NCBI RefSeq assembly: GCF_900104955.1
Contig: NZ_FNSI01000001.1
Location: 1,212,001 to 1,276,000, forward strand
DNA: 64,000 nt
From: Beijerinckia sp. 28-YEA-48
GTDB lineage: Bacteria; Pseudomonadota; Alphaproteobacteria; Rhizobiales; Beijerinckiaceae
Reading direction: 5' to 3'
Within the stretch, counting starts at the first letter, position 1; each line of letters opens with the position of its first letter. The notes under the pieces are model-generated. The model did no database searches. It was not told the DNA's origin and was given only the letters and a program-made list of their open reading frames with translations. Positions 4,178 to 32,101 of this stretch are shown here, piece by piece. Both the position numbers and the translations under genes were made by a program.

Positions 4178-5206
4178 ATGGTGAAGCGTCGAACCTTTCT
4201 TCAGGCCGCCATCACCGCCGTTGCCACCGTCCCATTTCGCGCGTCGGCGCAATCCGCCGCAGCAGCGCGGCAGACAAGGATCATGCACATGAAGCAACAG
4301 CCAGTTACATTCGACAGCGCGGGCCTCAAGCTCGCGGGCATCCTCCATATGCCCGAAGGCAACGCCAGCGCGCCGCGCCCAGCTATTATTGTTGGCCATC
4401 CCGCCTCCAGCGTGAAAGAGCAGACCGCTGGCCTTTATGCCCGTCGCCTCGCGGAGCAGGGCTTCATCACCCTTGCCTTCGACACAGCCACCCAGGGCGA
4501 GAGCGAGGGTCAGCCACGCGGCGTCGAGGACCCGGCGCGCCGCATCGAGGAGTTTAGGAACGCGGTGTCGTTCCTCAGTGTCCAGCAGGGGATCGATCCC
4601 GATCGCATCGGTGTGCTCGGCGTCTGCGCTGCGTTCGGTTATGCGATCCCGGCCGCCGCCACGGATCACCGCATTAAGGCTGTCGCGTCCGTTAGCGGTT
4701 TCGATGTCGGCGCACAGTTCCGCGTCGGCGCCGACGGCAAGCAGGATCCAGCCGTCCTCCAGCATATCCTCGGCATGGTGTCGGCGGCCCGTACGGCGGA
4801 AGCGCGCGGCGAGGGCATCGGCACGCTGCCGCTCTTTCCGGCCAATGAAGCGGAAGCGCGCGCCGGCGGCCGGCACCTCTTCGAAGGCTGGGAATATTAT
4901 TGCACCGACCGCGCGCAGCATCCTCGGTCGGCGAAGACTTTTACGCTGAACAGCCTGGATCGCCTCGCCACGTTTGATCCCGTCCGGTTCGTTGGCATGA
5001 TCGCGCCGCGCCCGCTGCTCATGATCGTGGGGACCGAGGCTGTCACCAAATGGGTCGCCGAAGACGCCTTCAGGAAGGCTGGGGGACCCAAGGAGCTGTT
5101 CTGGATCGACGGGGCGACGCATGTCGATCTTTATGACAAGCCCAAATATGTCACGCCGGCTTCGGCAAAGCTGGGCGATTTCTTCCGCTCGCACCTGGGC
5201 GCCTGA
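4178..5206 (+). CDS. Tat-exported alpha/beta hydrolase with apparent Cys nucleophile
   Basis: 342 residues. The N-terminus is a twin-arginine signal ('KRRTFLQAA', cleavage probably near 'RASAQS', residues 21-26), so the enzyme acts outside the cytoplasm. The GTG at 4181 has better spacing from GGAGG at 4171 than the ATG at 4178; both keep the signal. The rest is a dienelactone-hydrolase-like alpha/beta hydrolase: 'AIIVGHPASS' near the oxyanion hole, and the nucleophile elbow reads GVCAAFGYA with Cys150 where most hydrolases have Ser. A C-terminal 'DGATHVDLYD' supplies His315. In related proteins the elbow is GxCASGG; here Ser-Gly is replaced by Ala-Phe. The substrate is unknown. It is divergent from the AraC gene and ends before a strong hairpin. 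Confidence 0.85.
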   Translation: MVKRRTFLQAAITAVATVPFRASAQSAAAARQTRIMHMKQQPVTFDSAGLKLAGILHMPEGNASAPRPAIIVGHPASSVKEQTAGLYARRLAEQGFITLAFDTATQGESEGQPRGVEDPARRIEEFRNAVSFLSVQQGIDPDRIGVLGVCAAFGYAIPAAATDHRIKAVASVSGFDVGAQFRVGADGKQDPAVLQHILGMVSAARTAEARGEGIGTLPLFPANEAEARAGGRHLFEGWEYYCTDRAQHPRSAKTFTLNSLDRLATFDPVRFVGMIAPRPLLMIVGTEAVTKWVAEDAFRKAGGPKELFWIDGATHVDLYDKPKYVTPASAKLGDFFRSHLGA

Positions 5207-5303
5207 TCCGTCTGCGCCTCTGCTCGAATGCTTGCCTGATCCTGCCAGCCAGATCGTACTGCCAGTATCCAGCATCTAGTGGGCCCGCGGGGCACAGTGC
5301 TTC

Positions 5304-5359
5304 TGCGTCGGCCCTCGATAGCCCGGTTCTTTGAACCCGGCAGTGCGAGTGCCGACGCA
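5304..5359. terminator. Hairpin between convergent genes
   Basis: A long imperfect stem-loop in the 169-bp gap between two convergent hydrolase genes. The outer arms TGCGTCGGC (5304-5312) and GCCGACGCA (5351-5359) are perfectly complementary. An inner stem is formed by CCGGTTC and GAACCCGG around TTT. There is no long T-run, so it may stop transcription from either side as a bidirectional terminator or simply protect mRNA ends. Confidence 0.6.
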
Positions 5360-5375
5360 GATGCAGTTTCGGCTA

Positions 5376-6143
5376 CTATTTGACTTCTGAGGCAGCCGCT
5401 TCGATGAGCTTGGCGACCGCTGCCGGTTGCGAGACATAGATCGCGTGGCTACCGGCGTGATCGGTGGTCTTCGCGCCGGCGCGCTTGGCCATCATCCGTT
5501 GCACGTCGACAGGGATCATTTGATCGTCGGTCGCGACGAGATACCAGCTGGGCTTGGCTCTCCAGGCCGGGACAGTGATCGTGCCGTTCAGGGAATCGAG
5601 GCCCCAGGGAACCTGGGAATCGGCCATGAAGGCAGCCAGTTCGGGCTTTACGTCGGCTGCGAACGAGCCCGCGAATTTGGCCTTATCGAGGAACAGGAAG
5701 CCACCGACCGGTGGAACGATCGGCGGAACCGGCGCACCTGGAGCCGGATTGGAGGTGAGTTTCGCGACGGACTCGCCCTGATCGGGCGCGAAGGCGGCGA
5801 TATACACCAGTCCGGCAACCTTCGGATCGGTCCCGGATTCGGTGATCACCGCGCCGCCGTAGGAATGGCCGACGAGGATGACCGGCTTGGTTTGAGCCTT
5901 GACCGCAGCCTTGGTGGCCTCGACATCGGCCTTCAGCGAGAGCGTCGAATTCTGGACGATGGTGACATCGTACCCGTCCTTCTTCAGGATCTGATAGACG
6001 CCCGCCCAGCCCGAGCCATCGACGAACCCGCCGTGAACGAGGACGATCGCCTTGTCCGTTCCTTTGGTCTGCGCGGAGACCGATGCGGAAGTTGTGGCGA
6101 TGGCTATTGCTGCTCCTGCTATTAGTTTGAACATCGTTTTCAT
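5376..6143 (-). CDS. Exported alpha/beta hydrolase
   Basis: 255 residues with a Sec signal peptide ('MKTMFKLIAGAAIAIATTSA', cleavage likely after 'SVSA', residue 24). The mature protein is a compact alpha/beta hydrolase of the esterase/MenH-like type: 'VLVHGGFVDGSGW' (oxyanion region), GHSYGG with Ser94 as nucleophile, 'VATDDQMIP' for the acid (Asp206 or 207) and 'GSHAIYVSQP' with His233. It lies on the same strand as, and 51 bp downstream of, the exported isochorismatase, so the two could be co-transcribed; both act in the periplasm or outside. The natural substrate is not evident. Confidence 0.88.
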   Translation of the reverse strand: MKTMFKLIAGAAIAIATTSASVSAQTKGTDKAIVLVHGGFVDGSGWAGVYQILKKDGYDVTIVQNSTLSLKADVEATKAAVKAQTKPVILVGHSYGGAVITESGTDPKVAGLVYIAAFAPDQGESVAKLTSNPAPGAPVPPIVPPVGGFLFLDKAKFAGSFAADVKPELAAFMADSQVPWGLDSLNGTITVPAWRAKPSWYLVATDDQMIPVDVQRMMAKRAGAKTTDHAGSHAIYVSQPAAVAKLIEAAASEVK

Positions 6144-6194
6144 ATGCGCCTTATCCTTCGAATGTTGTTTGCGCCAACGGGGAAATGCGCGCTT

Positions 6195-6926
6195 TCACTT
6201 GCGCGCCTGGGCGATCTGCCCGACGAGCTTCGCCCACGGCATGTCGAGAGCCTCGTAGACGGCGCCGGCCTCTGGCCGCCCGTTGTCCTTCAGGATTTCG
6301 ACCATCAGCGTTGCGTAGTCCGAGAGGATGACGCCGGCTTGCTGCATGCGCAGGAGACCGGCCTGGCGCTTCGTCTCGCTGAATGTGCCGGATGCGTCGA
6401 CCGCGACGTAAGCGTCATGGCCTTTGCCGATCGCCGTGATCGCGGGAAATGCGGCGCAGACTTCAAGGGAGATGCCGGCGAAGATCAGCTTCTTGCGGCC
6501 GGTCGCCTCGATGGCGCGTGCGACGGAGGGATCATCGAAGGCGTTCACCGACGAGCGGTCGATAATGCGGATGCCCGGCAAGGCTTCGACGAGCTCGGGG
6601 AAGGTCGGTCCCCACATGCTGTCACGCGCCGTTGTCGTCGCCACGATCGGCAGATTGAGCGCCTTGGCGGCCTTCGCCAGCGCGACGACATTGTGCTTCA
6701 GCTCGCCCGTCGAATAATCGCGCACGCCGGTCATCAGGCCGATCTGATGGTCAACGAGGATGAGCGCGGCGTTTTCGGACGTGAGCGGGGCATAGGGATG
6801 GGCTTGGTCGATCATTGCAAACTCCTGTTGGCGTGGATGAATGGTGGCCGGGAGCGACGGGGCGATGCCGATGACGGTCGCCGTTGCTCCGGCCGCTGCA
6901 ATTTGGAGGAACTGACGCCGTTCCAT
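6195..6926 (-). CDS. Isochorismatase family hydrolase (YcaC-like) with Tat-type leader
   Basis: 243 residues from an ATG preceded by GGAGG. The N-terminus 'MERRQFLQIAAAGATATVIG' is a typical twin-arginine signal. The cysteine-hydrolase core follows: 'AALILVDHQIGLMTGVRDYS' with catalytic Asp59, a central 'IIDRSSVNAFDDPSVARAIE' stretch, and 'LIFAGISLEVCAAFPA' with nucleophile Cys157. The layout matches the YcaC subgroup rather than nicotinamidases. An internal Met at residue 38 would give a cytoplasmic version, but the leader is too Tat-like to be chance. The gene is divergent from the LysR regulator at 7079, its probable activator. The substrate is unknown. Confidence 0.88.
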   Translation of the reverse strand: MERRQFLQIAAAGATATVIGIAPSLPATIHPRQQEFAMIDQAHPYAPLTSENAALILVDHQIGLMTGVRDYSTGELKHNVVALAKAAKALNLPIVATTTARDSMWGPTFPELVEALPGIRIIDRSSVNAFDDPSVARAIEATGRKKLIFAGISLEVCAAFPAITAIGKGHDAYVAVDASGTFSETKRQAGLLRMQQAGVILSDYATLMVEILKDNGRPEAGAVYEALDMPWAKLVGQIAQARK

Positions 6927-21619: not shown

Positions 21620-22034
21620 GTCAAATCTCCCTGGCCATCGCCATCGATATTGACGGAGTTTACAGCGATAGGAAAAGTTGGGGCTAAAAATAAACCGTTA
21701 CAGCCGATCGGAACAACCCAATGGAGATGGGTCATGGCGTAGGTTTGGCTGTGACTTTCGTTGCCGTTAAGCGCAACGTGCCTCACACGTAATGAAATTG
21801 AGTACTGGAGCGCGATGTAACCGGAAGCCTTCCGCCACGCAGCGAGAAGCCGGCCTGTGTCTCAATGCGTTCGCGGGAGCTCAGAACGCGTCGTCTGCAT
21901 CTCATGACAAAAACTTTTCTGTTCAAGTCTGACGTTCGTCTGATCGCATTTCCTTAACAGACGTTAATCGTCATCAATCTGTCATTCAGTAGTTCTACGG
22001 GGTCGCCAGGGTTGGTGCTGGGGCTTTGATATAA
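21620..22034. other. 415-bp intergenic region ahead of the autotransporter
   Basis: No gene is supported here. It is the divergent promoter region for the NTF2-like gene (minus) and the autotransporter (plus), with lower GC near 21900-22000. Two GACG/CGTC dyads at 21928-21972 are the only regular structure seen. Confidence 0.5.
21928..21972. promoter_or_regulatory. Paired GACG/CGTC dyads upstream of the autotransporter
   Basis: TCTGACG-TT-CGTCTGA (21928-21943, one mismatch) and GACG-TTAAT-CGTC (21960-21972) share arms and lie about 65-105 bp before the autotransporter ATG. Two related dyads in a promoter are what a dimeric regulator would use. No regulator is adjacent, so this is a weak candidate. 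Confidence 0.3.
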
Positions 22035-25000
22035 ATGTCGTTTTCTGTGCAGGGTGTTGCTCGCGCGGCTGCGAGCGTGAGCGTGTATGGTCAATCTCAA
22101 GGGAGCGTCCTGCGGCGTTTCACGCTTTTGTGCTCCGCTTCGGTTGTCGCTCTTGTCTTCGCCGGTCATGGTATGGCCGGGCAGCTCCCAGCGACGGCCT
22201 TTCAGAACTACGATCCGAGCGCCGCGTCCGGCATTGTCGCCGGCCCCCTCGCGCTGTACACGGTGCACGTCAACGACATTCTGCCGACGCAGCTCAACCT
22301 CGGTTTCGCCGAGGTTGGCAAGAAGGTCACTGCCTATGATCTACTCACTGCGGCAGGGGTTCAGAACGATCTTTTGAGCAGCCTCGAGCCGGTGGTGATA
22401 GGGCCGGGCGGCAAGCTCTATCTGACCAATGGCCATCATACATTCACGTCGCTGCAACAGTCCGTGTATGGCGCCTCCAATCCGTCGGTTTATGTCAACG
22501 TCATCGCCAACTATTCGAACCTGACCGAGGCCCAATTCTGGGCCAAGATGCAGTCCAGCAATTTTCTGCTGCCGCTCGACAATGGCGTCGTGAAGTCCGT
22601 CGACCCGCTCACTGGGGCTCCTATTCCATCATCCTTTTCGGGCATGACCAATGACCCTTATCGGGGATTGGAATACAGCATCCTGAAGAACAAGGGATCG
22701 AAGCTGTTCGATACGGCTTCGAATATCAGCGGGGCGGTTGGCTCGACGATCCCCGGTCTCGACAAGACGGCGGCTTTTTACTCCGATTTCATTTGGGCCA
22801 ATGCCTACCGCTACGCCAACAACGGCCTCGGCCTGGCGTATCTCTCGCCCGGCGATATCCTGCTGGCGACCCAGTGGAATTTGAACGGTGCCAATGTGAC
22901 CAAGCTGCAGCAGGGCGGCGCCGATGTTACCGTGGCGCAGTTGCCGGGCTATATCCTTCCGGCTGCTGGTCTTAATATCAGCAGTGTCATCGACACCGCG
23001 ACTGTCAACAGCGGCGCGCTCGATGGCTACGGCACCTTCACTGGCTTGCGCGGTCTCAATCTCGGCACAGTGACCATTGGCACGCCGGATTCGACGACGG
23101 GCCTGATTCTACAATTGGGTGCCGATCGCGGCGGCAAGGTTACACTGTCAGGCAACAATACCTATACCGGCGGCACCACGATCCTCGCCGGGACGTTGAT
23201 TATCAGCAGCGATGCCAATCTTGGCGCTGCAAGCCCGTCCAATCTGGCGGTTTCGAGCATCCTCACAGCCGACGACGTGCGTGCCGCGAATGGCATCGTT
23301 TTCAATAGCCTCAGCGAGGGCAAAGGAACGCTGCAGATCAACAGCTCGATGACGTTCAACCGGCCGATCGGCGCTGGTGGCGAAGTCGCGACCATCAATC
23401 CCAACGGCAACATCATCACATTGACCGGTCCGATTATTTCTTTGGACAACAATGCCACCGGCTTCTCCGATCTCTCCATCGGGGGAAGCGGGACCGTCGT
23501 TCTCGCTCCGACCGCTGGCAGCAATCCCAATTTCTACGGCAATTGGATCGTCTCGGCCGGTACGTTCCAGGCTTCGAGCGACGCCGCGCTGGGCAATACA
23601 AGCGGGCCGGCTTATTCGATCGGTCAAATCATTCTCGATGGTGGCACGTTCAAGCCCGGCGCCTCCTTCAGTTCAGTTCGCAGCGTGACGCTGACTGGCG
23701 GCAGCGTGTTCGACACGAATGGCTTCAACACCTCGTTCGCTGGCGTTTTGACCGACGTGCAGCGCCGGTTGGACATCACCAACAGCAGCGCGACGAGTAA
23801 CGGCGCCGTGACGTTCGGCTCACTTAATATCAGCGGTTCGAATACGACGAACGCCACTGGCGCAACCTCCACCTTGCGCTTCGTGGCCGGCGCCGGCAAG
23901 AACACGGCGGTTACGCTGACGAATGGCGTGACCCGCACCGATCGTTCGACGCTCTTCATCCAGCCGTCGACGGCGACGTCCCTTGGGACAAGCGAATTCG
24001 TCTATTCTGGCGCGCCAGCACTGACCAACACCATGGCGCCCGCTTGGATGATTTCAAACACCAGCGGTGCGGATGCCTATGATTTTCTGACCTACGGCCC
24101 CAATGGTTACGTCAAGGCGACCTATACCAAAGCTGGAAGCGGCGCGAGCGGCGGCATCAACGATGCCTCGACGACGGTCCCCAATGCTGGGATCGTGGAG
24201 CAGACGAACAACGGCACGATTGCGACCAATCGATATGCCTATGCGCTCAAAGTCGACAGCAAGGCGACCGTTACGATCAACGCCAGCAACTCGCTGACGC
24301 TCGGCGATGGTGTCAACCCGGCCGGGCTCATCCTGGGCGGCAGCAGCAGCAACACCGCCAATATCATGGGCGGCAAGCTGATCTTCGGCGGCAGCGAGGG
24401 CATTATCTACTCCAGAAGCACCGCGGTTTCTGGCACGACCTTGGGCAATACCATTTCGTCCGAGATCGTCGGAACGAATGGATTGACCATCGCGGGCGAG
24501 GGCATGCTGACGCTGAGCACGGCGTCTCCCAATCTCACCGGATGGATCAACGTCGACTCCGGCATGTTGAACCTCACCGCTGCCAACGCGTTCCTCAATG
24601 TCAGCGGCGTCAATCTGTCGAACGTCAAGAGCAATCCGGCGCCTGCGGGCCTGACGATCGCCGCCAGCAATGCCTTCAGCTCGCTCAATAGCGGCGGCAG
24701 CAACAGCACGATCAAGGTCTCCGGCGCTAACACCGTGCTGACCATTGGCCAGACCAACAACACCAATGCGGCGCTGAACAATCTGGATTCGACGATTTCA
24801 AGCACGATCACGGCGACTGACGTGGCCGCCGGATCGGCCGCGATCGTCAAAGTCGGGACCGGCATGCTCGATCTGTCCGGCGCGACGATGACGCTGACGA
24901 CGGGCAGCAATATTGCCGTGAATGCCGGAACGCTGCGGGTGAGTGCCTCGTCGTTCACCAATACGAACAATATCGTGACGTCGGGCGCCAGCGAGGTGCA

Positions 25001-27287
25001 GTTTGCGCAAAATGGCGGCGGCAAGTTCGCCGGCAACGTGACGGGCACGGGTGTGCTGCATCTGATCGGCGGCACCTTGCAGTTGACCGGCACGGGCAAC
25101 ACCTATTCGGGCGGCACCATCGTCGAGCAGGGATCGACGCTCGATCTCACCACGGCCAATGTGTCGAGCGGGAACGCGAATATCATCAATGCGGGCGGCC
25201 TGATCGTCTTCGATCAAGCGAGTTCCGGTATCTATAGCGGCGTCATCAGCGACGGCTGCCAGATGCAACAGGCTTGCACCACCAAGCTCGCCGGCAGCCT
25301 GGTCAAGGACGACAGCACCGGCGGCAATGGCGGCAATGTCACAATCGCAGCGGTGCAGACCTACACGGGCGGCACATTCGTCGAGGCAGGTACTCTGACG
25401 CTGGGCGTCGGCGATGCCGTCGCCTCCAGCGCCGGAGTGGATCTCGGCCGCATCGGCGGCGGCGCGACAGCGACGTTGGCGCTCACCGCGAACAACACCA
25501 TCAAGGGGTTGATGAGCGAGAAGTCGAACACGACGATGGTCCAGCTCACCGACAAGACCCTAACGGTCAACACGGCGAGCGGTCAGGCGTGGGATTTCGG
25601 TGGCGCGATCACCGGAACGGGCAATTTTGCTAAATCCGGCGCTGGCGTCCAGATCTTGAGCGGCGCCAGCTCCTATACCGGCACGACGACGGTCGATGCA
25701 GGTGTGCTGCGTGTCGACGGGTCCATCGCTTCATCGTCGCTTCTCTCGGTGAACAACGGTGCCACGCTCGCCGGCAACGGCACGGTCGGCAACACGATCA
25801 TCAATGCTGGCGGCAATTTGGCGGCCGGCAATTCGATTGGTACTCTGACGGTGCAGGGCGATCTCACCTTCATGAGGGGATCGACCTATCAGGTCGAGGT
25901 CTCTCCGACTTCCTCCGATCGCGTCAATGTCTCCGGCATCGCCACGCTCAATGGCGCCAGTGTCGCCGCCTATTATGACTCGGGCGCCTATATCACCAAG
26001 CGTTACACCGTGCTCAATGCGGCCGGCGGCGTCAGCGGCACCTTCTCGGGGCCGGTGAACACCAATCTGCCGAGCAATTTCTCGGCGGCGTTGGACTATG
26101 ACCATAACAACGCCTACCTCGACCTGACCCTGAACTACACGCCGCCGGGACCGACGCCGCCGAACTTCGGCAGCGGACTGACGGGGAACCAGGCCAGTGT
26201 CGCCAACGCGCTGGTGAATTCGTTCAACACCTCCGGCGGTATTCCCCTGGTGTTCGGCGCCCTGGGGCCGAGCGGCCTCTCGCAGGCTTCGGGCGAATCC
26301 GCCACGGGCGTCCAGCAGGCGACCCTCACCGCGATGGATCGCTTCCTCAATCTGATGACCGATCCTTATTCCAGCGGTCGCACCGTCGCGATGGTGCCAA
26401 TGTCCTATGCGCCGCTGCCGCGCGGTGCGCAGCCTCTGATGGTGACCCAGCAACCGCGCTGGAGTGTGTGGGGCGCGAGCTACGGCGGCACGCAGACGAC
26501 GCGCGGCCAAGCCCTCACCGGCACCAGCACGGCGATCAACGGCATCTTCGGCGTCGTCGCCGGCGCCGACTATCGCGCCACGCCCGACACGGTCATTGGC
26601 TTCGCGCTCGGCGGTGGCGGCACCAGCTATCGCCTCGCCAGCGGCGCCGGCAGCGGTTCGGCCAATATGTTCCAGGCGGGTCTCTACGGCCGGCAGACGT
26701 TTGGTTCGGCCTATGTCGCCGGTTCGCTCGCCTACGGCTGGCAGGACGTCACCACCGACCGGCGCGTCATGTTCGATCAGCTGCGCGCCCGCTTCAACGC
26801 GAGCGCCTTCTCGGGCCGGCTTGAAGGCGGATATCGCTTGGCAACCCCGTTCGGCGGCGTGACGCCTTATGCGGCCGGCCAGTTCACCAACATCGCTTTG
26901 CCCAATTACAGCGAGCAGGCGATCACCGGCCCCGGTCTGTTCGCGCTCAACTATGGCTCGAAGAGTGTCACCGCCTGGCGCTCGGAACTGGGTCTGCGCT
27001 CTGACACGGCCTTCGAGATGGGTGATGCGACGCTGACGCTGCGCGGCCGTCTCGCCTGGGCGCATAACTACAACCCGAACAGCTCGATCTCGGCCTCCTT
27101 CCTCAACCTTCCTGCGTCCGGCTTCACTGTTAATGGTGCAGCGGCGGCGCGTAATGCGGCGCTGGTTTCGGCCGGAGCGGAGATGAAATGGCAGGGTGGT
27201 CTGTCCATCGCCGCGACGTTCGAGGGCGAATTCTCAGGTCGTGGCAACAGCTATGCCGGCAAGGGAACGCTGAGGTATCAATGGTGA
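22035..27287 (+). CDS. Autotransporter with N-terminal ParB-like nuclease domain
   Basis: 1750 residues. An extended leader (about 49 residues, hydrophobic 'LLCSASVVALVFAGHG') is followed at about 60-270 by a ParBc_2-type ParB-like domain: 'VHVNDILPTQLNLGFAEVGK', 'LYLTNGHHTFTSLQQ' with Gly-His-His at 133-135, 'EAQFWAKMQ', 'DPYRGLEYSI' (207-) and 'FYSDFIWANAYRYA'. A long Ser/Thr/Asn/Gly-rich beta-helical passenger contains passenger-associated repeats ('NNTYTGGTTILAGTL', 'NTYSGGTIVEQGSTLDL', 'QTYTGGTFVEAGTLTLG', 'SSYTGTTTVDAGVLRVDG'). Residues 1475-1750 form the outer-membrane autotransporter barrel, starting at 'RWSVWGASYGG' and ending in an aromatic YQW. So a ParB/Srx-fold domain is presented at or beyond the cell surface. 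Its substrate is unknown; nucleic acid or nucleotide is a guess. Its stop is followed by a hairpin. Confidence 0.9.
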   Translation: MSFSVQGVARAAASVSVYGQSQGSVLRRFTLLCSASVVALVFAGHGMAGQLPATAFQNYDPSAASGIVAGPLALYTVHVNDILPTQLNLGFAEVGKKVTAYDLLTAAGVQNDLLSSLEPVVIGPGGKLYLTNGHHTFTSLQQSVYGASNPSVYVNVIANYSNLTEAQFWAKMQSSNFLLPLDNGVVKSVDPLTGAPIPSSFSGMTNDPYRGLEYSILKNKGSKLFDTASNISGAVGSTIPGLDKTAAFYSDFIWANAYRYANNGLGLAYLSPGDILLATQWNLNGANVTKLQQGGADVTVAQLPGYILPAAGLNISSVIDTATVNSGALDGYGTFTGLRGLNLGTVTIGTPDSTTGLILQLGADRGGKVTLSGNNTYTGGTTILAGTLIISSDANLGAASPSNLAVSSILTADDVRAANGIVFNSLSEGKGTLQINSSMTFNRPIGAGGEVATINPNGNIITLTGPIISLDNNATGFSDLSIGGSGTVVLAPTAGSNPNFYGNWIVSAGTFQASSDAALGNTSGPAYSIGQIILDGGTFKPGASFSSVRSVTLTGGSVFDTNGFNTSFAGVLTDVQRRLDITNSSATSNGAVTFGSLNISGSNTTNATGATSTLRFVAGAGKNTAVTLTNGVTRTDRSTLFIQPSTATSLGTSEFVYSGAPALTNTMAPAWMISNTSGADAYDFLTYGPNGYVKATYTKAGSGASGGINDASTTVPNAGIVEQTNNGTIATNRYAYALKVDSKATVTINASNSLTLGDGVNPAGLILGGSSSNTANIMGGKLIFGGSEGIIYSRSTAVSGTTLGNTISSEIVGTNGLTIAGEGMLTLSTASPNLTGWINVDSGMLNLTAANAFLNVSGVNLSNVKSNPAPAGLTIAASNAFSSLNSGGSNSTIKVSGANTVLTIGQTNNTNAALNNLDSTISSTITATDVAAGSAAIVKVGTGMLDLSGATMTLTTGSNIAVNAGTLRVSASSFTNTNNIVTSGASEVQFAQNGGGKFAGNVTGTGVLHLIGGTLQLTGTGNTYSGGTIVEQGSTLDLTTANVSSGNANIINAGGLIVFDQASSGIYSGVISDGCQMQQACTTKLAGSLVKDDSTGGNGGNVTIAAVQTYTGGTFVEAGTLTLGVGDAVASSAGVDLGRIGGGATATLALTANNTIKGLMSEKSNTTMVQLTDKTLTVNTASGQAWDFGGAITGTGNFAKSGAGVQILSGASSYTGTTTVDAGVLRVDGSIASSSLLSVNNGATLAGNGTVGNTIINAGGNLAAGNSIGTLTVQGDLTFMRGSTYQVEVSPTSSDRVNVSGIATLNGASVAAYYDSGAYITKRYTVLNAAGGVSGTFSGPVNTNLPSNFSAALDYDHNNAYLDLTLNYTPPGPTPPNFGSGLTGNQASVANALVNSFNTSGGIPLVFGALGPSGLSQASGESATGVQQATLTAMDRFLNLMTDPYSSGRTVAMVPMSYAPLPRGAQPLMVTQQPRWSVWGASYGGTQTTRGQALTGTSTAINGIFGVVAGADYRATPDTVIGFALGGGGTSYRLASGAGSGSANMFQAGLYGRQTFGSAYVAGSLAYGWQDVTTDRRVMFDQLRARFNASAFSGRLEGGYRLATPFGGVTPYAAGQFTNIALPNYSEQAITGPGLFALNYGSKSVTAWRSELGLRSDTAFEMGDATLTLRGRLAWAHNYNPNSSISASFLNLPASGFTVNGAAAARNAALVSAGAEMKWQGGLSIAATFEGEFSGRGNSYAGKGTLRYQW

Positions 27288-27403: not shown

Positions 27404-29524
27404 CTAGGCGGCTGAGCCGATCGCCACACCGCTGCTCATGCTTACCCCCTTGTCCATCTCTTTCGCCTTCGCCACTGCCTGCCTCAACACCTCGGGTGTG
27501 AGCAAGGTGAGCTGGCCGCTGGCGATGAGGTCGGGGAGGGGCGCGGGGCGGCCGAGGAGGTAGCCCTGGGCTTCGTCGCAGCCTTCGTGCGTGAGCAGAG
27601 AGAGCTGGCCCTGCGTCTCGATGCCTTCGGCGAGAACCGAAATATCGAGGCTTTTGCCCAGCGCCAGGACGGCGCGCACGATCGCCTTGGCCTGCGGGCT
27701 GGATTCGACCTCGCTGATGAACGAGCGGTCGAGCTTGATCTTGTCGAAAGGGAAGGTCCGCAGCGTATCGAGCGAGGAATAGCCGGTGCCGAAATCGTCG
27801 AGCGCGATATCGACGCCGAGCGCCTTGATCTGGTGCAGCATGTCGAGCGAGCGTTCTTTGTCGGTGAAAATGGTCGTCTCGGTCAGCTCCAGTTCGAGGC
27901 GATTGGGGGCAAGGCCGGTTTCCTCCAGCACGTCGCGCACCAGCTTGGGCAGATCGGCATGGGTGAACTGGGCGGGAGAAATGTTCACCGCAATCTTATA
28001 GGGCTGCACCCATGCGGCAGCTTGCGCGCAGGCGGTGCGCAACACCCATTCGCCGATGTACAGAATGAGGCCATTCTCCTCGGCGATCGGAATGAACTCT
28101 GCGGGTGAAATGTTGCCGCGTTGCGGGTGCTTCCAGCGCGCCAGCGCCTCGAAGCCGAGGATACGGCCGCTCGGGATCGAGGTTTGCACCTGGTAGTGAA
28201 TGTCTAGCTGGCCAGCCTTCATCGCGTCGCGCAGATCATTGGCCAGGGTGCGGCGAGCGCGGACGGTTTCGTCCATGGACTGGTCGTAGAAGCAGATCAC
28301 TTTGCCGAGATCGGCCTTGGCGCGATACATGGCGAGATCGGCATTGTTGATCAGGGTCGCTTGGTCAGTGGCATTGTCGGGATAAAGCGCGACGCCGATG
28401 CTGGCGCCGGTAACGACAGGGTAGCCATCGACGGTGATGGATTCGAACAGCGCAGTTTGCAGCCGAGCCAGGAAATGGGTGAGGGTGCTGTCGTCCTTGA
28501 CGCGCTGTACGGCGGCGAATTCGTCACCGCCGAGCCGGGCGATGAATTCGCCGTCGCGTAGGAGGTCGTTCATGCGCTGGCCCAAAACCTTGAGCACGTA
28601 ATCGCCGACGCTATGGCCGCGCTGGTCGTTGATATCCTTGAAGCGGTTGAGGTCGATGCCGACCAATGCGACTTTGCCGCCGGTCCTGGTGACGGTTTCG
28701 AGATCGTGTTCAAGCCGGGCATCAAAACTCACCCTGTTGGGCAAGCTGGTCAGGCTGTCGATCAGCGCCATCCGGCGTAGACGTTCGTAGGCTTCGGCGC
28801 GCAGGCTATCGTCGATGAAATAACTGGTAACGCCGGCGCCGAGGATGAGGACGGCGACGCCGGCAATGGCCAGCGCCAACGCCTGCATGGCGTCGGGATT
28901 GGAATAGTCGCCTTCGATCAGCAGGGGATAGACCTGGAAGGCTGTCATGGCGGTGAAATGCAGGCTGACGATGGCGGCGACCAGAACGCCGGCGGCGAGG
29001 AACTGGCCACTGCGGGTGATCTTGTTCATGGCGATATGCAGCGACAGGCTGCCGAAGGCGACCGCGAGGGCGATGGAAGCAATCAGATAGGGCATGTTCC
29101 AGGAGACGAGGCCCTGAACGCGATAGCCCATCATGCCGGTGTAGTGCATGGCAACGATGGCGAGGCCGATGAGGGCGCCACCAAAGATCGGGGCCATTCG
29201 GACCAGCTTGCTGGTCGAGACCATGAGACCAACAGCGCCACCGATGACGGCGACCAGCAGGGATACGATCGTCAAAACTGGATCGAAGCCGATGGGAACG
29301 CCAGGGTTGAAACCGAGCATCGCGATGAAATGCGTGCACCAGATCGTCGCGCCCAGCGACGTGGCGGTCAGCACATGCCAGCCCAGTTTTTGTGTCCCGG
29401 TTGCGGTGACGGCGCGGTGAAACAAACGGATCATCACCCACGAGCCGACGACGCAAATGGCCGCGGCGATGAGAACCAGCCAAATGTTATGGCTTTCGGT
29501 GATGCACGAAAGAACACTCATCAT
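27404..29524 (-). CDS. MHYT-GGDEF-EAL cyclic-di-GMP enzyme (copy 1)
   Basis: 706 residues. The N-terminal MHYT sensor has about seven membrane helices (residues 1-240) with the three signature repeats 'THFIAML', 'MHYTGMM' and 'LHFTAMT', thought to bind copper and sense a diatomic gas. The GGDEF domain (about 255-420) keeps RLGGDEF near residue 330, so cyclase activity is possible. The EAL domain (about 435-685) keeps EALAR, 'LELTETTIF', 'DDFGTGYSSLDTLRTFPFDK' and 'VLAEGIE', so phosphodiesterase activity is likely. Both halves look intact, so the sensor may set the balance. A close paralogue lies 411 bp upstream on the same strand. Confidence 0.95.
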   Translation of the reverse strand: MMSVLSCITESHNIWLVLIAAAICVVGSWVMIRLFHRAVTATGTQKLGWHVLTATSLGATIWCTHFIAMLGFNPGVPIGFDPVLTIVSLLVAVIGGAVGLMVSTSKLVRMAPIFGGALIGLAIVAMHYTGMMGYRVQGLVSWNMPYLIASIALAVAFGSLSLHIAMNKITRSGQFLAAGVLVAAIVSLHFTAMTAFQVYPLLIEGDYSNPDAMQALALAIAGVAVLILGAGVTSYFIDDSLRAEAYERLRRMALIDSLTSLPNRVSFDARLEHDLETVTRTGGKVALVGIDLNRFKDINDQRGHSVGDYVLKVLGQRMNDLLRDGEFIARLGGDEFAAVQRVKDDSTLTHFLARLQTALFESITVDGYPVVTGASIGVALYPDNATDQATLINNADLAMYRAKADLGKVICFYDQSMDETVRARRTLANDLRDAMKAGQLDIHYQVQTSIPSGRILGFEALARWKHPQRGNISPAEFIPIAEENGLILYIGEWVLRTACAQAAAWVQPYKIAVNISPAQFTHADLPKLVRDVLEETGLAPNRLELELTETTIFTDKERSLDMLHQIKALGVDIALDDFGTGYSSLDTLRTFPFDKIKLDRSFISEVESSPQAKAIVRAVLALGKSLDISVLAEGIETQGQLSLLTHEGCDEAQGYLLGRPAPLPDLIASGQLTLLTPEVLRQAVAKAKEMDKGVSMSSGVAIGSAA

Positions 29525-29935: not shown

Positions 29936-32101
29936 TCAGGCGGCGGAGCTGATGATCATGCCAGGGCTTGAGCGGGTGTCGTTAGGCATGTTCTTGTCCA
30001 GGCTCTTCTCGGCCTCCTTCACTTTCGCCACCATCTGCTTCAGCGAGTCCGGTGTCGTCAGGGTGAGTTGGCCGCTGCCGACGAGTTCGGTGAGAGGGAC
30101 GGGGCGGCCGAGGAGGTAGCCTTGGGCTTCGTCACAGCCTTCGCTGGTGAGCAGCGTGAGCTGTCCCTGGGTCTCGATGCCTTCGGCGAGAACAGGAATC
30201 TCCAGGCTTTTGCCGAGCGCCAGCACGGCGCGGACCATGGCCTTCGCCTGCGGGCTGGACTCGACCTCGCACATGAACGAGCGATCGAGTTTGATCTTGT
30301 CGAACGGAAAGGTGCGCAGCGTATCGAGCGAGGAATAGCCGGTGCCGAAATCATCAAGCGCGATGCCGACGCCGAGGGCCTTGATCTGGCGCAGCATGTG
30401 CAACGAGCGTTCCTTGTCGGTGAAGATGGTCGACTCCGTCAGCTCCAGCTCGAGGCGCTCGGGCGACAGGCCGGTTTCCAGCAGCACGTCGAGAACCAGT
30501 TTCGGCAGATCGGCATGGGCGAACTGGACGGGGGAAATGTTCACCGCGACTTTATACGGCGGTTCCCATGAGGCGGCGCGCGAACAGGCGGTGCGCAGCA
30601 CCCATTCGCCGATCTGCAGGATAAGGCCATTCTCCTCGGCGATCGGAATGAACTCGGCGGGCGAAATGTAGCCGCGCAGAGGATGCTTCCAGCGCGCCAG
30701 GGCTTCATAGCCCTGGATTTGGCCGGTCGAGATCGAGGTTTGCACCTGATAATGAATGTCGAGCTGGCCGGCGTTCATCGCCTCGCGCAGATCATTGGCG
30801 AGGTTGCGGCGAGCGCGGACCGTTTCGTCCATGGACTGATCGTAGAAGCAGACGACTTTGCCCAGATCGGCCTTGGCGCGGTACATGGCGAGGTCGGCAT
30901 TGTTGATCAAGGTCGCTTGATCGGCCGCATTGTCGGGGTAAAGCGCGACGCCGATGCTGGCGCCGGCGATCACGTCGAAATCGTCGACGGAGATGGAATC
31001 GAACAGCGCGGTTTGCAGGCGGGCCAGAAAGTCGGTGAGGCTGTCATCGCCTTTCGCCTCGTCATCGTGCATGCGCTGCACGGCCGCGAATTCATCGCCG
31101 CCGAGCCGGGCGATGAATTCGCCGTCGCGCAGCAGGCCGTTCATCCGCTGGCCCAAAACCTTGAGGACCTGATCGCCGGCGCTGTGGCCACGCTGGTCGT
31201 TGATGTCCTTGAAGCGATCAAGGTCGATGCCGATCAAGGCGAGTTTGCCGCCGGCCTTGTCGATGCCCGTGATCTCATGTTCGAGCCAATTGTTGAAGCT
31301 GGCCCGATTGGGCAGGCTGGTGAGGCTATCGACCAGGGCCATCTGGCGCAAACGCTCGTAGGATTCGGCGCGCAGGCTGTCGTCGATGAAATAGCTGGCG
31401 ATGCCGGCGCTGAGGATGACGATGGCGACGCCGGCAATAGCCAACGCCAGGGCCTGCATGGCATCGGGATTGGAATAATCGCCGTCGATGAGCAAGGGCT
31501 GAACCTGGAAGGCGGTCATCGCGGTGAAATGTAGGCTGACGATGGCGGCGACCAGGATGCCGACGGCGAGAAACTGGTTGCTGCGCGTCATCTTTTCCAT
31601 GGCGTTGCGAAACGTCAGGGCGGCGAAGACGACGGAGAGGACGATCGAGGCGATCAGATAGGGCACGTTCCAGGAGACGAGGCCCTGGACGCGATAGCCC
31701 ATCATGCCGGTGTAGTGCATGGCGACGATGGCGAGGCCGACGATGGCACCGCCCAGGACTGGCGCCATCCGCGTCACATTGCTGGTCGCGGCGATGAGGC
31801 CAATGGCGCCGCCGATGACGGCTACGAGCAGGGAGACGATCGTCAAGACCGGATCGAAACCGATCGGAACGCCGGGATCGAAGCCGAGCATGGCGATGAA
31901 ATGCGTGCACCAGATGGTGGAGCCAAGCGACACGGAGGTCAGAACATGCCAGCCCAGTCTTTGCGCACCGGCCGTCGTGGCGGCTCTGTGGAACAGGCGG
32001 ATGGTCACCCAGGATCCGACGACGCAAATAGCGGCGGCTACGAGAACCAGCCAGATGTTATGGCTCTCTGTAATGCACGAAAGAACGGTCATCATGCTCA
32101 A
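29936..32101 (-). CDS. MHYT-GGDEF-EAL cyclic-di-GMP enzyme (copy 2)
   Basis: 721 residues with the same architecture as copy 1 and high identity along the whole length. The MHYT motifs ('THFIAML', 'MHYTGMM', 'LHFTAMT'), RLGGDEF near residue 332, and the EAL residues ('YEALARWKHP', 'LELTESTIF', 'DDFGTGYSS') are all intact. Differences concentrate in linkers and the C-terminal tail ('EKSLDKNMPNDTRSSPG'), and a few extra residues lie after GGDEF ('MHDDEAKGDD'). Three Met codons lie at the start; the first is used here. Tandem duplication with both active sites kept suggests different signals or expression rather than redundancy. Confidence 0.95.
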   Translation of the reverse strand: MSMMTVLSCITESHNIWLVLVAAAICVVGSWVTIRLFHRAATTAGAQRLGWHVLTSVSLGSTIWCTHFIAMLGFDPGVPIGFDPVLTIVSLLVAVIGGAIGLIAATSNVTRMAPVLGGAIVGLAIVAMHYTGMMGYRVQGLVSWNVPYLIASIVLSVVFAALTFRNAMEKMTRSNQFLAVGILVAAIVSLHFTAMTAFQVQPLLIDGDYSNPDAMQALALAIAGVAIVILSAGIASYFIDDSLRAESYERLRQMALVDSLTSLPNRASFNNWLEHEITGIDKAGGKLALIGIDLDRFKDINDQRGHSAGDQVLKVLGQRMNGLLRDGEFIARLGGDEFAAVQRMHDDEAKGDDSLTDFLARLQTALFDSISVDDFDVIAGASIGVALYPDNAADQATLINNADLAMYRAKADLGKVVCFYDQSMDETVRARRNLANDLREAMNAGQLDIHYQVQTSISTGQIQGYEALARWKHPLRGYISPAEFIPIAEENGLILQIGEWVLRTACSRAASWEPPYKVAVNISPVQFAHADLPKLVLDVLLETGLSPERLELELTESTIFTDKERSLHMLRQIKALGVGIALDDFGTGYSSLDTLRTFPFDKIKLDRSFMCEVESSPQAKAMVRAVLALGKSLEIPVLAEGIETQGQLTLLTSEGCDEAQGYLLGRPVPLTELVGSGQLTLTTPDSLKQMVAKVKEAEKSLDKNMPNDTRSSPGMIISSAA

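Follow-up and report, generated by a model that had tools for sequence, protein, structure and literature searches.

Inside the cell, the ParB/Srx fold is a known nucleotide module, and the superfamily members SerK and SbnI (both free serine kinases), sulfiredoxin, ParB, and Noc are all known as intracellular proteins. To our knowledge, no extracellular role had been assigned to it before. A 2025 survey of ParB/Srx proteins (PMC12704722) tallied fusions through PF02195, and no word in its main text starts with secret, autotransporter, signal peptide, extracellular, or periplasm. For the Pfam family PF08857 (ParBc_2), a solved member is Atu1540 (PDB 2hwj), a protein of the leaderless type that was deposited as hypothetical, and no report of catalysis by a PF08857 protein was found in the available text of the literature searched. 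The one published mention that we found of an exported PF08857 protein under phosphate stress concerns P. fluorescens SBW25, which is reported to secrete a PF08857 lipoprotein when starved for Pi; the authors of that study suggest that the lipoprotein might work in the manner of UshA (PMC5082522). Autotransporters with an N-terminal enzyme placed before a beta-helix are already known, MapA being a predicted one (PMC9289746).

Here, we describe a gene of Beijerinckia sp. 28-YEA-48 that would bring these two themes together. It lies in a window of 64,000 nucleotides, which is the whole stretch of DNA that was analyzed, and all coordinates given without a locus name refer to this window.

Architecture, fold, and orthologs of the autotransporter

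The gene (22035..27287, plus strand) is an open reading frame for a protein of 1750 residues that has the features of a type Va autotransporter as recognized from the sequence, namely, a hydrophobic leader, a passenger with PATR repeats, and a C-terminal barrel. The leader is a predicted signal peptide of about 48 residues (22035..22178, plus strand), placed by its hydrophobic stretch and by alignment, with a proposed cleavage between A48 and G49 (GMA/GQLP); the leader has a hydrophobic core and ends in A/GQL, a sequence that all seven orthologs contain. It is followed by the ParBc_2 domain at residues ~68 to 308 (22236..22958, plus strand), by a passenger at residues ~320 to 1230 (22992..25724, plus strand) that is presumed to be a beta-helix and is conserved together with the ParBc_2 domain, and by a beta-barrel at residues 1478 to 1729 (26466..27221, plus strand) that scores over the Pfam cutoff for PF03797. 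PATR was found in three stretches, the best of them, over the Pfam cutoff, at residues 1200 to 1227. From this architecture, we infer that the protein is located at the cell surface. A pair of neighboring MHYT-GGDEF-EAL genes (cyclic di-GMP turnover) is located at 27404-29524 and 29936-32101 on the minus strand, convergent to the autotransporter gene.

The initial annotation had placed a ParB-like domain at the N terminus of a classical autotransporter, and this assignment is well supported by the profile match, by the fold, and by six more proteins of the same architecture. ParBc_2 was matched at residues 76 to 222 with 91.3 bits (E = 9.3e-26), against a curated cutoff of 23.6, and with 95.5 bits in the whole-genome search, and the domain has, by computation, the fold of the solved member 2hwj. 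Only one other PF08857 protein is encoded in the same genome, a leaderless protein of 208 residues.

Orthologs were sought with exact peptide patterns in a collection that represents each of 84,980 species by a single genome (genome_contigs), where 51 matches included five genes for relatives (L010 to L014) with domain identities of 61 to 85%, and a separate search added a sixth (L058, genome G086). Together with the 28-YEA-48 protein, these seven orthologs measure 1739 to 1833 residues as called; ParBc_2 and PATR are present in all of them and PF03797 in six, L014 giving no PF03797 match at an E value of 0.01. ParBc_2-autotransporter fusions are rare: PF08857 occurred in a frame of more than 1700 residues in 2 of 397 genomes of an order-level sample and in the 28-YEA-48 genome alone among the 398 and 385 genomes of a phylum-level and a class-level sample. 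No match to the protein was found in phages, while 21 plasmid records matched, each at below 60% identity, one of them aligning to 80% of the query at a single location.

Conservation is uneven along the protein. In blocks of 100 residues, identity of the six others to the 28-YEA-48 protein is 56 to 88% over residues 101 to 300 and 29 to 85% over residues 301 to 1200, and it is 11 to 32% over residues 1301 to 1750 except in L011 (41 to 59%). Over its final 300 residues, the protein matches the corresponding end of one paralogous autotransporter of the same genome at 96% identity and those of three others at 80 to 88%, in a comparison that took in 20 of the genome's 24 barrels; none of these four paralogs (L172, L169, L174, and L168) has a PF08857 match. 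The barrel of L010 is closest to a different 28-YEA-48 paralog (63%). Because a conserved N-terminal part is thus joined to a paralog-like barrel, the ParBc_2 domain and the passenger look as if they were inherited together as one unit while the barrel was exchanged or converted, with the predicted change point near the PATR at ~1200 to 1230; barrel identities of 80 to 96% among paralogs would be expected from such gene conversion or barrel exchange. Among the 24 barrel matches of the genome is also one autotransporter frame of 5113 residues (G000:C1:4707517-4708272, minus strand).

Within the ParBc_2 domain, residues T85, Q86, G90, H134, H135, D207, R210, and F252 form a near-invariant set that is present in all seven orthologs, the 28-YEA-48 protein included, and K97, F168, P198, K244, and R259 are likewise unchanged in all seven. 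In a wider alignment of 41 ParBc_2 rows, T85, Q86, G90, H134, H135, R210, and F252 are found in every row, D207, F168, and P198 in 40, D132 and R259 in 39, K244 in 38, and K97 in 37. The motif at residues 132 to 135 (22428..22439, plus strand) reads NGHH here and DGHH in five of the seven orthologs, L010 being the other one with Asn132, an exchange that may weaken or alter the activity of the 28-YEA-48 protein. The second motif, DPYR at residues 207 to 210 (22653..22664, plus strand), reads DVYR in L013; of the two signatures on which the initial annotation had relied, therefore, GHH is kept in seven of seven orthologs and DPYR in six. Beyond the 41 rows, R210 is replaced in some divergent exported ParBc_2 paralogs, such as L086, L094, and L096, which read DKYFSL or DKYLSL at this place and IDHH, TQHH, or SGHH for DGHH and are perhaps noncatalytic.

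Relative to L010, dN/dS is 0.10 for the ParB domain, and the two halves of the passenger give 0.14 and 0.21; relative to L011, the values are 0.29, 0.30, and 0.48, so that the domain has the lowest ratio of the computable segments in both pairs. No Pfam phosphatase family, Metallophos and 5_nucleotid_C included, was found in the protein, whose N-terminal domain is ParBc_2, nor did the helix-turn-helix and dimerization domains of ParB CTPases (PF02195 type) give a match at an E value of 0.01.

A PhoB-box-like repeat upstream of the gene

The E. coli PhoB consensus is CTGTCAT-N4-CTGTCAT, and it served as the reference here, being derived from another organism rather than from the 28-YEA-48 genome. 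The half-site CTGTCAT is given in PMC4415409. A direct repeat that had been missed in the first reading of the sequence, TCGTCAT-CAAT-CTGTCAT (21968..21985, plus strand), matches this consensus at 12 of 14 positions and stands 67 nt upstream of the start codon. In all seven orthologs, the best match lies on the coding strand 52 to 115 nt before the start (placed at an internal ATG, 3925, in L058), with scores out of 14 of 12 (28-YEA-48), 10, 12, 11, 9, 11, and 11, i.e., at least 11 in five of seven. Scored against stretches of 150 nt taken from the same locus, the boxes have P values, in the same order, of 0.0006, 0.036, 0.0045, 0.0045, 0.119, 0.0068, and 0.0029, and they combine to 3e-8 by Fisher's method with each P floored at 1/200. 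The real half-site ranked first of 420 permuted ones, the runners-up being largely shifted copies of it. A spacer of 4 gave the highest total of 12 spacers (76, the 11 others reaching 65 or less), compared with 57 on the reverse strand and 51 to 61 at eight other offsets. Singly, the boxes are weak in two orthologs, L010 (P = 0.036) and L013 (P = 0.12), with P values of 0.051 and 0.16 upon rescoring with ATG starts and 200 nt, which covered four of five autotransporter genes (L058 was not located, and 28-YEA-48 and L014 were left out).

Ten nucleotides past the box, a weak -10-like TACGGG (21996..22001, plus strand) is present, and TA stands at +10 or +11 past the box in five of the seven orthologs (background, 0.064; P = 2e-5), a post hoc count chosen after the TATAAT listing had been seen; the TATAAT score itself is no sharper at a spacing of 10 than at 8 (16 each). 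By sequence match, the gene has a PhoB box at promoter distance, and control by PhoB appears very likely.

The 28-YEA-48 genome (6.43 Mb) encodes a PhoB that scores over the family cutoff and contains 31 sites with up to two mismatches, the one before the autotransporter gene among them, against 7 for a reversed-pattern control. Among the 21 of these 31 sites that were examined for downstream genes, boxes stand before ppk (at a distance of 68 nt), before phnGHI (83 nt), and before a phytase-like gene (57 nt), and at the other 18, the downstream gene is not plainly phosphate related. The phytase-like protein (L186, 1125-2468, minus strand) has a leader-like start, and its half-sites, TCGTCAT-N4-CTGTCAT, are the same as those of the autotransporter gene. 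A box within 600 nt of the start (starts approximate) was found for 1 of 21 autotransporter genes, the ParBc_2 one only, in a check that set aside 3 weak or partial barrels of the 24 and, of the 31 sites, the 5 on contig 2.

Exported single-domain relatives also show a combined box signal (Fisher P = 0.003; P < 0.05 in 3 of 13), 13 of 15 genes having been scored (L129 was not located, L118 has no upstream sequence, and L055 was not included); TA past the box was seen in 9 of these 13, with TA also at +7 (three genes) and +15 (five genes), while several genes of this group have no box. No combined signal was detected for cytosolic PF08857 genes (21 of 21 scored; Fisher P = 0.27, with P < 0.05 in 3), for H-type exported genes (4 of 5 scored; 0.89), or for the divergent exported genes of genus g339 (2 of 4 scored; 0.97), and no box was found for L100, L102, L103, and the fusion gene L127.

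Gene neighborhoods, whose comparison the initial annotation had suggested, proved unhelpful as a guide to function, as no neighbor was seen to be shared among six ortholog loci when ORF starts were compared by eye, nor, again by eye, among the loci of exported relatives (ParBc_2 gene located in 20 of 24). In a single case, L014 (902-16739), genes for a 5'-nucleotidase, ExbB, a TonB receptor, a PiT phosphate transporter, and a leaderless ParBc_2 protein stand near the autotransporter gene; of eight genes scored there, only the autotransporter gene (11 of 14) and the PiT gene (10 of 14) have a box above 8.

Proposed function and alternative readings

In a tree of the 41 rows, the seven autotransporter domains group together (support 100/100) as sister to seven exported DGHH proteins (97/94). 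Residue 133 is G in these 14 rows and H (25) or R (2) in the other 27. A hydrophobic leader was found in 20 of 21 (D/N)GHH proteins, the exception being L055, which has no in-frame upstream start, and leaders also occur in some H133 proteins (L065, L068, L072, L075, and L076). Four DGHH proteins run on into an inorganic pyrophosphatase (PF00719, E = 3e-33 to 3e-35; L067, identical to L082, and L078, L080, and L081), and the pyrophosphatase signature DGDPLDV is present in all four fusions. These proteins, consisting of signal peptide, ParBc_2, and pyrophosphatase in ORFs of ~514 to 525 residues (L078, L080, L081, and L082), come from two genera (g238 and g339) of one family (f96) in the same phylum. 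In L139, a gene for a DUF1015 protein (4501-5751), a family that we take to be in the ParB clan, precedes an H-type ParBc_2 gene with a leader (5800-6798) by a gap of ~50 nt, both on the plus strand, and the two genes possibly form an operon.

The reading that we favor, with moderate confidence, is a PhoB-controlled, surface-displayed phosphohydrolase of the ParB/Srx fold that would scavenge phosphorus. When phosphate is scarce, PhoB would turn on the gene of this monomeric (type Va) autotransporter; the signal peptide would direct export, the C-terminal barrel would move the passenger through the outer membrane, and the presumed beta-helix of ~900 residues would carry the ParBc_2 domain at its outer tip, where the domain, most likely a hydrolase, would free phosphate from extracellular phosphorus compounds. 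Since a Pho-box-like repeat precedes the gene, a role in phosphorus scavenging is likely, and we lean toward the domain being a hydrolase. The secretion of a PF08857 lipoprotein reported for Pi-starved SBW25 (PMC5082522) is an independent point in favor of this reading. Nucleotides, cleaved to nucleoside monophosphate and pyrophosphate, would be the leading guess for the substrate because exported relatives carry a fused pyrophosphatase; these fusions suggest pyrophosphate as the product of the domain and, hence, NTP or polyphosphate as the substrate, with phosphodiesters or nucleic acids also possible, and a pyrophosphate-releasing chemistry is a rather doubtful proposal. A SerK-like kinase role was set aside, as a kinase would need extracellular ATP and a hydrolase would not.

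The initial annotation had offered three roles, of which a secreted nuclease, which would cleave DNA or RNA outside the cell to gain phosphorus or to remove a biofilm, seems rather unlikely. It goes back to the name of the Pfam family, putative ParB-like nuclease, and it would agree with the conserved His, Asp, and Arg residues and also with PhoB control; moreover, "putative nucleases" appear among the Pi-responsive exoproteins of PMC5082522, which may mean the PF08857 protein itself. However, no assay was found in the literature behind the Pfam name, and the pyrophosphatase fusions are less in keeping with an endonuclease than with a product that is a nucleotide or polyphosphate.

That the tip has lost catalysis and serves as an adhesin or a structural cap, covering the passenger or binding surfaces under phosphate stress, is very unlikely in our view, even though most characterized autotransporters outside the enzyme groups are adhesins (PMC9289746) and the Asp of DGHH is Asn in the 28-YEA-48 protein and L010. 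The remaining near-invariant polar residues are intact in all seven orthologs, no segment computed relative to L010 is more constrained than the ParB domain, and exported relatives carry enzyme fusions. A still fainter prospect is a switch or sensor whose conformation would change when NTP outside the cell is bound in the way that CTP is bound by ParB. In its favor, ParB/Srx folds bind CTP, ATP, or GTP (PMC12704722), and ParBc_2 shares the fold with them. Position 136, where the motif alignment (not a superposition) places the Arg of the ParB GxxR motif, is L in 23 rows, T in 12, W in 3, and S, A, and M in 1 each, and with Arg in 0 of 41, the canonical CTP site is probably absent. Pfam recognizes no downstream switch partner in the protein, the pyrophosphatase fusions suggest chemistry, and NTP is scarce outside cells. 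A contact-dependent or polymorphic toxin can practically be dismissed: ParB-like domains do figure in lists of polymorphic toxin domains, but no gene was seen to recur in the ortholog neighborhoods (ORF starts, by eye), the passenger is conserved where a variable tip would be expected, and a Pho box is present.

Returning to the phosphohydrolase, we tentatively speculate that the whole exported (D/N)GHH branch of PF08857 could be an undescribed family of extracellular, phosphorus-scavenging ParB/Srx-fold enzymes, PhoB controlled in several lineages and deployed as signal peptide protein, lipoprotein, pyrophosphatase fusion, or autotransporter, which would release pyrophosphate from NTPs or polyphosphate for splitting by a fused or other pyrophosphatase. 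If true, this would, as far as we know, be the first extracellular role of the ParB/Srx fold, placed here by architecture on an outer-membrane stalk and linked by a promoter motif to phosphate starvation, and it would provide a testable function for PF08857 and for a type of enzyme-bearing autotransporter. Phosphorus limitation is common for bacteria in soil and water, and for this reason a new type of surface phosphatase would bear on the turnover of organic phosphorus. Neither the union of ParBc_2 with an autotransporter nor the promoter footprint of the orthologs or the pyrophosphatase fusions was found in the available text of the literature searched.

Comparison with described systems

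Compared with this autotransporter, Atu1540 is a chain of 205 residues without passenger or barrel, reads DHHHL where the (D/N)GHH proteins read (D/N)GHHT, and lacks an insertion of ~20 residues after residue 218. ParB has the GxxR phosphate motif, whose Arg is missing from the 41 PF08857 rows. The SBW25 protein resembles our proposal in being exported and associated with phosphate starvation, but it is an uncharacterized lipoprotein rather than an autotransporter, and the likeness is one of description (PMC5082522). The 5'-nucleotidases UshA and CpdB would share with the 28-YEA-48 protein the proposed scavenging of nucleotides outside the cytoplasm during phosphate starvation, whereas they carry Metallophos and 5_nucleotid_C, neither of which Pfam finds here. 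Similar in layout is the acid phosphatase MapA of Moraxella catarrhalis, a phosphate-releasing autotransporter whose N-terminal domain, placed before a beta-helix, is predicted to be catalytic (PMC9289746, PMC3419190), and for which no mention of PhoB control was found in the available text; in the 28-YEA-48 protein, in contrast, the N-terminal place is taken by ParBc_2 instead of a phosphatase family.
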